Translations under genes and position numbers: made by a program | Shown: piece after piece, positions 16,441 through 24,913 of the stretch | Layout of the letters: each line of letters begins with the position of its first letter | Position numbering within the stretch: position 1 is the stretch's first letter | IMG/VR virus record: IMGVR_UViG_3300032307_000541 | Span: 1 to 47,081 of that record | Source: a virus | Reading direction: 5' to 3' (one strand) | Length of the DNA: 47,081 bases | The notes under the pieces: model-generated | Database searches by the model: none | Told to the model about the DNA's origin: nothing | Seen by the model: the letters and a program-made list of their open reading frames with translations, nothing else

Positions 16441-16457
16441 ATCAATCCTCTTTTTTT
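16430..16457 (+). terminator. intrinsic terminator
   Basis: AAAGGGGAT (16430-16438) pairs with ATCCTCTTT (16445-16453), 9 bp with one G-U, 6-nt loop, followed by a run of seven T (16451-16457). Ends the 11.3-16.4 kb gene run before the origin region. Confidence 0.8.
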
Positions 16458-17028
16458 ATGCTCTTAAATAGGGGCTAATGAGGTTACAAGGGCATCCATC
16501 AATCCGCACTTCAAGCCCATAATGATACCCACAATAATTTACCACTAAAAACATCCGAAGCGCAGAGGGGAAGCGCTCTATTCTTTTTTGATACGGAATT
16601 GGAATTGAAAACCACATCGTGTCATATTTCCCACACTATCCCACTTTCTAACACATTTTACCACTTTGGATAATAACAGGGCTTAGAATGATAGTGTAGT
16701 ATATCATAAAGAGGGCATATACGGATTCATTGGCAGAGCGCAAAATTTTTCCCGATATATTTTTACACACTAGCGTAGAACTTATCCACACCGTTATCCA
16801 CATGCGATTTACAAATGTAACACCGTAACTCATTGAGGCTCAGAGCTTTATCGGCTAAACGAATATACGAATTAACAAATGTAAACGAATGAGCTGTAAG
16901 TTATCCACATAGCTGGGAGTTATCCACATGAAGTAAAGATTTATGTAACAAATGTAAACTCATTGAGTCACAACACGTTACGGAAGGGAGCTGGAGCGTT
17001 AATGAAGCTAAAAAAGTTATCCACACCC
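16458..17028. other. candidate replication origin with five DnaA boxes
   Basis: No gene. Five exact TTATCCACA boxes, all on the plus strand: 16782-16790, 16794-16802, 16901-16909, 16920-16928 and 17017-17025. Between them are three ACAAATGTAA repeats (16811-16820, 16875-16884, 16948-16957) and two AACTCATTGAG sequences (16827-16837, 16957-16967) that match half of the dyad repeat. An A/T-rich stretch at about 16741-16770 could unwind. This layout is typical of DnaA-dependent origins. Origin use in this phage is inferred. Confidence 0.7.
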
Positions 17029-17060
17029 CTTGACTTTCTCAGGAATATTTCGTATCTTTA
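17029..17060 (+). promoter_or_regulatory. promoter of candidate ncRNA 1
   Basis: CTTG 17029-17032, 20 nt, TATCTTTA 17053-17060, with TCAGG at 17039. No gene starts in the next 320 nt, so the transcript is untranslated or a very long leader. Confidence 0.75.
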
Positions 17061-17232
17061 AGGGAGAGGAGGGCGGGTTAAGCGTTGCACTTATTGGGGA
17101 GCCCTGATAGCCCATTGAAAATTCTCTAATGAAAACCCCAATTCGTTGAAAATATCGTAACTCAAGACGATGGCGCTTTGAAAATCCTTTAACAAAACCC
17201 CTAAAATATTATGAAAAATAGTTGTGATAAAG
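17061..17232 (+). ncRNA. candidate untranslated RNA 1
   Basis: Starts AGGGAGAGGAGGGCGGG directly after the -7 box; AGGGC (17070-17074) can pair with GCCCT (17101-17105). The 3' half holds three TTGAAAAT units at 17115, 17146 and 17178 (spacing 31 and 32 nt). It has no plausible open frame. The first 17 bases nearly equal those of candidate RNA 2. Confidence 0.5.
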
Positions 17233-17264
17233 CTTGTTTATATCAGGAATTTGTTGTACCTTTA
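17233..17264 (+). promoter_or_regulatory. promoter of candidate ncRNA 2
   Basis: CTTG 17233-17236, 20 nt, TACCTTTA 17257-17264, TCAGG at 17243. Followed by GC-rich sequence, not by a start codon. Confidence 0.75.
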
Positions 17265-17329
17265 GGGTGAGGAGGGCGGGGTGAGCCCTTTGAGCACAGC
17301 CCTGACTCCCCGAGTGAGGCTAAAATAAA
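17265..17329 (+). ncRNA. candidate untranslated RNA 2
   Basis: Begins GGGTGAGGAGGGCGGGG after its promoter; AGGGC (17273-17277) can pair with GCCCT (17299-17303), and CGGGG with CCCCG, giving a compact GC-rich fold. Ends before the next promoter at 17330, so it would be about 65 nt if terminated there; no T-run is visible. Confidence 0.5.
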
Positions 17330-17361
17330 TTTGGATATATCAGGAATATTTCGTATATTTG
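17330..17361 (+). promoter_or_regulatory. Bacteroidetes-type promoter with TCAGG spacer element
   Basis: TTTG 17330-17333, 20 nt, TATATTTG 17354-17361, TCAGG at 17340; 20 nt before the ATG at 17382. Confidence 0.85.
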
Positions 17362-17381
17362 TATTATAATAAAGTATATTT

Positions 17382-24670: not shown

Positions 24671-24913
24671 ATGAAAAGTTTTAAAATTAGAGAGAACCTT
24701 ATCCACATTGATGGCGTACTATACGGCCCTACCCCTACGGATGTAAAGATTAAGGGTAAGTCCGGTACGATACAATCTATTAGTGTTCCCAATAGAGGTC
24801 AATACTTTCCTTATTCGGGTACATTCATTGATTCTTCCCTTCCGGTTACCGATGATTCAACCGGCATTGTGGAAGATACTAAACCCCTTAAGAAACCCCG
24901 TAAAACAAAGTAG
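24671..24913 (+). CDS. hypothetical protein
   Basis: An 80-residue protein, beta-rich (LIHIDGVLYGPTPTDVKIKG), with a Lys/Pro-rich end (KPLKKPRKTK). It contains one TTATCCACA (24699-24707) in coding sequence, judged a coincidence. No family recognised. Confidence 0.6.
   Translation: MKSFKIRENLIHIDGVLYGPTPTDVKIKGKSGTIQSISVPNRGQYFPYSGTFIDSSLPVTDDSTGIVEDTKPLKKPRKTK

Follow-up and report, generated by a model that had tools for sequence, protein, structure and literature searches.

Large phages with replication enzymes of their own are usually thought to initiate replication without the host DnaA protein, and the origins of T4-type phages, which depend on a promoter and on priming by an RNA-DNA hybrid, are to our knowledge not known to make use of DnaA boxes. 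Among the recognised hallmarks of theta origins in plasmids and phages are phased repeats, DnaA sites and transcription close by, and in the iteron origins of plasmids such as P1, F and pSC101 helix-phased repeats and DnaA boxes reside together in one intergenic region (PMC5043065). Predicted DnaA boxes have also been described in the putative origin of a Pseudomonas phage (PMC11512268). Several consensus boxes in one orientation are found in bacterial oriC, and dense boxes in noncoding DNA at DnaA-titration loci such as E. coli datA, which comprises two consensus boxes and four with one mismatch (PMC5835720). Host dif sites, in turn, are used by, e.g., CTX-type filamentous phages and the Bacteroidetes microvirus proviruses (PMC3091885).

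The 47,081-base stretch of viral DNA analysed here (the window) comes from a T4-type jumbo phage of Bacteroidota. At 16.4-17.4 kb it contains a noncoding control locus, conserved among relatives, which can be set against each of these systems. Like the iteron plasmids it has helically phased repeats and DnaA boxes in one intergenic region, but a scan of proteins near the locus recognised no initiator or Rep gene, its 274-kb relative G006 has a T4-type replisome, and the repeats vary between relatives. With T4-type origins it has in common strong promoters with a G-rich transcript, the hybrid being predicted here, and G006 encodes a T4-gp43-like polymerase (PolB), a DnaB-like helicase and UvsX. 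Its dense boxes, of predicted high affinity, recall datA, from which it differs in being promoter-linked and in having phased repeats and palindromes. In contrast to oriC, there is neither a dnaA gene nor a skew change nor an evident strongly A/T-rich element adjoining the boxes. Finally, relatives resemble the dif-using phages in having dif-type sites and no recombinase gene, although this is a T4-type jumbo phage for which no integrated copies were found, and the window itself has no such site.

The window is a fragment of an approximately 270-kb phage of Bacteroidota, and its proteins include a DEAD-type helicase, an ATP-dependent ligase, PhoH, a UvdE-type endonuclease and a TonB-type outer-membrane receptor. 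For the helicase, relatives were found in 113 viral stretches, and some of these belong to contigs of 250-276 kb; in G006 (88% helicase identity) nearly all genes lie on one strand, and a ribonucleotide reductase is encoded as well. TTG...TAnnTTTR promoters and dif-type sites, both common to Bacteroidota, point to a host from this phylum. Blastn gave no match between the region near the locus and annotated phage DNA. That the family persists as a prophage was rejected, as just two of 395 Bacteroidota genomes carry helicases of only 40-42% identity and none the family helicase. The DnaA DNA-binding domain PF08299 was encoded in none of 17 records, as against 10 of 14 genomes in the positive control, and when seven Bacteroidota genomes were searched for box clusters, no clear host oriC emerged for comparison.

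With respect to the boxes, the initial annotation had described five perfect copies of TTATCCACA in one orientation within 244 bp of a gene-free region, all of which is correct: the copies span 16782-17025 on the + strand only, in a 941-bp gap (approximately 16441-17381) without a convincing gene. The single additional copy it had placed inside a gene is located within an ORF at 24699, and its estimate of less than one copy expected by chance on both strands agrees with a second-order Markov expectation of 0.85 for the whole window (0.004 per 244 bp). The location of five of the six copies within the gap has a binomial P of 2e-8. In an unbiased scan of every 9-mer, TTATCCACA was the most locally clustered one of the window, and no other reached four copies per 250 bp save its one-base shift. 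What the array repeats is the 9-bp box, in most cases with a G before it, rather than a long duplicated segment. Judged from the sequence, host DnaA very likely binds here. Two further points of the initial annotation hold less well. Since at least 120 viral contigs have three boxes within about 90 bp, density of host-initiator boxes alone is not unusual; and the A/T-rich stretch said to complete an origin-like layout is weak, as the G + C content of 16741-17030 (37.6%) exceeds that of the window (33.5%) and the lowest-GC stretches of the gap, at 17202 and 17321, lie outside the array, short A/T-rich stretches occurring only there.

Table 1. Features of the noncoding locus and its adjoining genes (window positions unless a relative is named).
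Feature	Position	Strand	Remarks
Four CAC repeats, CCCACACTAT CCCACTTTCT AACACATTTT ACCACTTTGG	16630..16669	+	10-bp (helical) phase
Remainder of conserved noncoding element, AATGATAGTGTAGTATATCA ... TATACGGATTCATTGGCAGAGCGCAAAATTTTT	16687..16750	.	kept in nearest relatives
DnaA box 1, TTATCCACA	16782..16790	+	exact match; aligned G001 position has 1 mismatch
DnaA box 2, TTATCCACA	16794..16802	+	exact match; kept in place in G001/G002
Palindromic site TTTACAAATGTAAC, type TTTACANNTGTAAA	16808..16821	.	first ACAAATGTAA copy (16811), TTTACANNTGTAA palindrome
Second ACAAATGTAA site (TTAACAAATGTAAAC)	16872..16886	.	copy at 16875
DnaA box 3, TTATCCACA	16901..16909	+	exact match
DnaA box 4, TTATCCACA	16920..16928	+	exact match
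Third ACAAATGTAA site (GTAACAAATGTAAAC)	16945..16959	.	copy at 16948
DnaA box 5	17017..17025	+	4 bases upstream of promoter A -33 element
Promoter A, Bacteroidota type, TTGAC ... TATCTTTA	17030..17060	+	pattern scan; alignment of eleven related promoters
G-rich leader A, GGGAGAGGAGGGCGGGT	17062..17078	+	directly after promoter A
Promoter B and G-rich leader B (GGGTGAGGAGGGCGGGG)	17234..17281	+	without DnaA box
Promoter C of gpA (TTTGG ... TATATTTG)	17330..17361	+	kept in L001-L006
gpA, 117 aa	17382..17735	+	ORF; HEWTH (HExxH-type) motif
gpB, 101 aa	17735..18040	+	landmark gene adjoining locus; homologues mark locus in distant relatives
dif-type sites	G001 11758; G002 19899; G004 44276; G005 42554, 42628; G006 47407, 47333; L286 1363; L293 1343

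In the relatives, the locus runs from the four CAC repeats through DnaA boxes or other repeats and palindromic sites to a promoter with a G-rich leader. Helically phased direct repeats adjoining DnaA boxes, as in iteron plasmid-type origins, are present, and the repeats are kept in five relatives, with an identical four-block layout in G001, G004, G006, G028 and G030. Alignment of the element relied on its four blocks, which follow a 10-bp phase; a profile search alone was not significant for G028 and G030, for which homology therefore rests on block spacing and position. The conserved noncoding element has one copy per record examined, and elsewhere in the examined sequence the CAC-block pattern occurs only in apparent repetitive coding sequence. 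The three ACAAATGTAA repeats reported initially were all found (Table 1), and palindromes comparable to the first of these sites are present in G001, G016, G018 and G028.

Leaders related to leader A occur in G001, G004, G006, G016 and G018 and, more weakly, in G028. The G-rich motif GGGNGNGGAGGGCGGG stands right after the promoter start at both 17062-17078 and 17264-17281 and is kept across relatives. It matches no Rfam family, the leader RNAs show no unusually stable fold (z-scores +0.7 to -1.2), and a scan for the motif outside the phage family gave chance matches, mostly in GC-rich contigs.

The boxes themselves turn over between relatives. The nearest relatives, G001 and G002 (gpA 89% identical), have three boxes in place and one with one mismatch, those of G001 being kept amid diverged sequence. 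In G003-G006 (gpA 74-75%) the conserved element is kept and there is no array between it and gpA; G005 and G006 have one box abutting a similar promoter downstream of the gpA-gpB genes. In G016, G018 and G019 three to five copies of GGATACGTTTTTTATTC replace the boxes, together with palindromes and a promoter with G-rich leader; these repeats occupy the DnaA-box position at 820-1140 of L286 and 820-1160 of L293. Three oppositely oriented boxes are found in a divergent lineage with 71% helicase identity: in G027/G028 two perfect TTATCCACA and one TTATCAACA stand in reverse orientation between the phased CAC element and the promoter, again with palindromes (P about 1.6e-4 for G028). G030 has the phased element and, as variant boxes, TTATCAACA and near-boxes at the locus. 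As to conservation in related phages, which had been suggested as a check, relatives keep the promoter and the flanking element and in many cases also the boxes, but some lack the boxes or have other repeats in their place.

The best single reading of the locus, albeit a tentative one, is that of an origin of replication that fires in early infection. It leads the alternatives because the combination of phased repeats and DnaA boxes with transcription alongside is typical of theta origins (PMC5043065). Further points in its favour are that box clustering is far above chance, and that divergent relatives again have boxes at this locus, in some cases in inverted orientation; dif-type sites at the locus in several relatives (see below) would fit a place where replicated genomes are handled. 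At such an origin, host DnaA together with a phage protein acting on the phased repeats might bend or open the DNA, and transcription from promoter A might then provide the opening or a primer for the phage replisome, the G-rich 5' end of the transcript presumably favouring a lasting RNA-DNA hybrid. However, the GC-skew sign change predicted near 16.9 kb is found neither in the window nor at the homologous place in the 274-kb relative, although uniform skew is also expected from one-sided gene direction. The uniform skew, the replisome that phages of this type have of their own and the related phages without an array (G003 and G004 have none, and G016, G018 and G019 have another repeat) keep the origin short of an even chance. 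The higher than average G + C content of the box region and the lack of a recognised initiator gene beside the locus also argue against it, and since G006 has its own PolB, DnaB-like helicase and UvsX, host DnaA need not load the helicase. Of the candidate phage origin that had been put forward initially, the box array stands as part of a real conserved control locus, and the origin itself is plausible but unproven.

The main rival is a DnaA-controlled promoter. The boxes would then be operators at which host DnaA acts as activator or repressor of transcription of the G-rich leader RNA and the gpA-gpB operon from their promoters with no replication start involved, so that phage gene expression would follow the state of host DnaA. 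Box 5 is well placed for this purpose, the junction AAAAAAGTTATCCACA(C)CCCCTTGACTTT being kept in G001/G002, with identical flanks in G001, and sharing the box-promoter layout of G005 and G006, where the single box kept is the promoter-abutting one; the palindromic sites, too, resemble operators. However, two to five boxes distant from the promoter would be unnecessary, promoter B and most related promoters have no box, and the nearest box of G027/G028 lies apart from the promoter. We consider this alternative unlikely.

Titration comes next. In this case the array would be a decoy through which the multiplying phage genomes titrate host DnaA and halt initiation at oriC, similar to datA, whose two consensus boxes are outnumbered by the five of the array. 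That box number, order and orientation vary between relatives is what titration would permit. Yet the boxes keep to a single conserved locus, where a promoter and phased repeats are also found, and are not spread genome-wide, and relatives manage without an array; a decoy is improbable.

The dif-type sites bear on a further alternative. The pattern ATAA-N6-TTATGTTAA(A/G)T, with zero matches expected, occurs in G001, G002, G004, G005 and G006 at this locus only, and dif-type sites are also present at the locus in G016, G018 and G019. At least 119 cellular contigs have a match to the pattern GTTATATAA-N6-TTATGTTAART, 79 of the 80 matches listed being Bacteroidota by title, and the central bases TTTACA of the G018 and G019 sites are those of 12 cellular matches among those listed; by sequence, the sites of the relatives look like the chromosomal dif of Bacteroidota. 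A phage-encoded tyrosine recombinase was not found, the relatives with dif-type sites included. Among the 120 three-box viral contigs listed, strict dif-type sites were located seven times near the boxes and never elsewhere, four of the seven being copies of one element, so that about 3-4 independent groups are represented. Dif beside box clusters is possibly a general arrangement of phages or plasmids. In unrelated viral contigs, a dif-type site between or beside DnaA-box clusters was seen in L263, L259, L236, L192, L249, L191, L325 and L329. A scan for a single box plus dif returned 16 viral contigs versus four for a reversed-box control; it is not counted as support, since 11 of the 14 contigs outside the family represent one coding sequence and its relatives, and a general single-box link was rejected.

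The locus might be a plasmid-like maintenance region of a phage with a circular or integrated stage, in which DnaA boxes initiate replication and dif resolves dimers via host XerC/XerD. In favour of this scenario are the restriction of the Bacteroidota-like sites to the locus and the vicinity of strict dif-type sites to boxes in unrelated three-box viral contigs. However, the window has no 28-bp dif-type site, the family helicase is absent from the 395 Bacteroidota genomes and the single-box scan returned mostly coding coincidences; we consider maintenance of this kind quite improbable. Chance or local duplication with no role for DnaA would agree with the quick gain and loss of boxes between close relatives, but is hardly credible given that it is the box itself that is repeated and that divergent lineages, too, have boxes at this locus.

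A broader proposal is that, in a T4-type jumbo-phage lineage with its own replisome, one intergenic locus gathers signals of the host chromosome cycle (DnaA boxes, joined by dif in several members), times replication by the host initiator and resolves genomes via host XerC/XerD, the type of repeat being swapped between lineages. Taken as a whole this is doubtful; if true, it would mean that some large phages read or exploit the replication cycle of their host. In the open-access literature, no description was found of a conserved T4-type jumbo-phage locus that takes up DnaA boxes or dif-type sites depending on the lineage, and no report on jumbo or Flavobacterium phages with DnaA boxes, the latter being weak evidence. 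The locus may be a start of phage DNA copying or a sensor of the host's DNA-copying state, and, as a 300-bp target, it would allow a direct test of the way in which such phages begin to copy their DNA.

Some additional observations were made in the window and its relatives. The small HExxH-motif protein gpA, which adjoins the locus, has orthologues of 74-89% identity and no Pfam match, and distant paralogues of it exist in the relatives. Just upstream of gpB, L310, L312 and L315 (G028, G030 and G025, respectively) have cloverleaf-like RNA repeats (GCGGAAG...CTTCCGC), which were rejected as tRNAs because ARAGORN calls none. Finally, a protein with the catalytic domain of the RuBisCO large chain (Pfam E 6e-33) is encoded at L041 8335-9525 (- strand), in the jumbo-phage contig of the relative G006.
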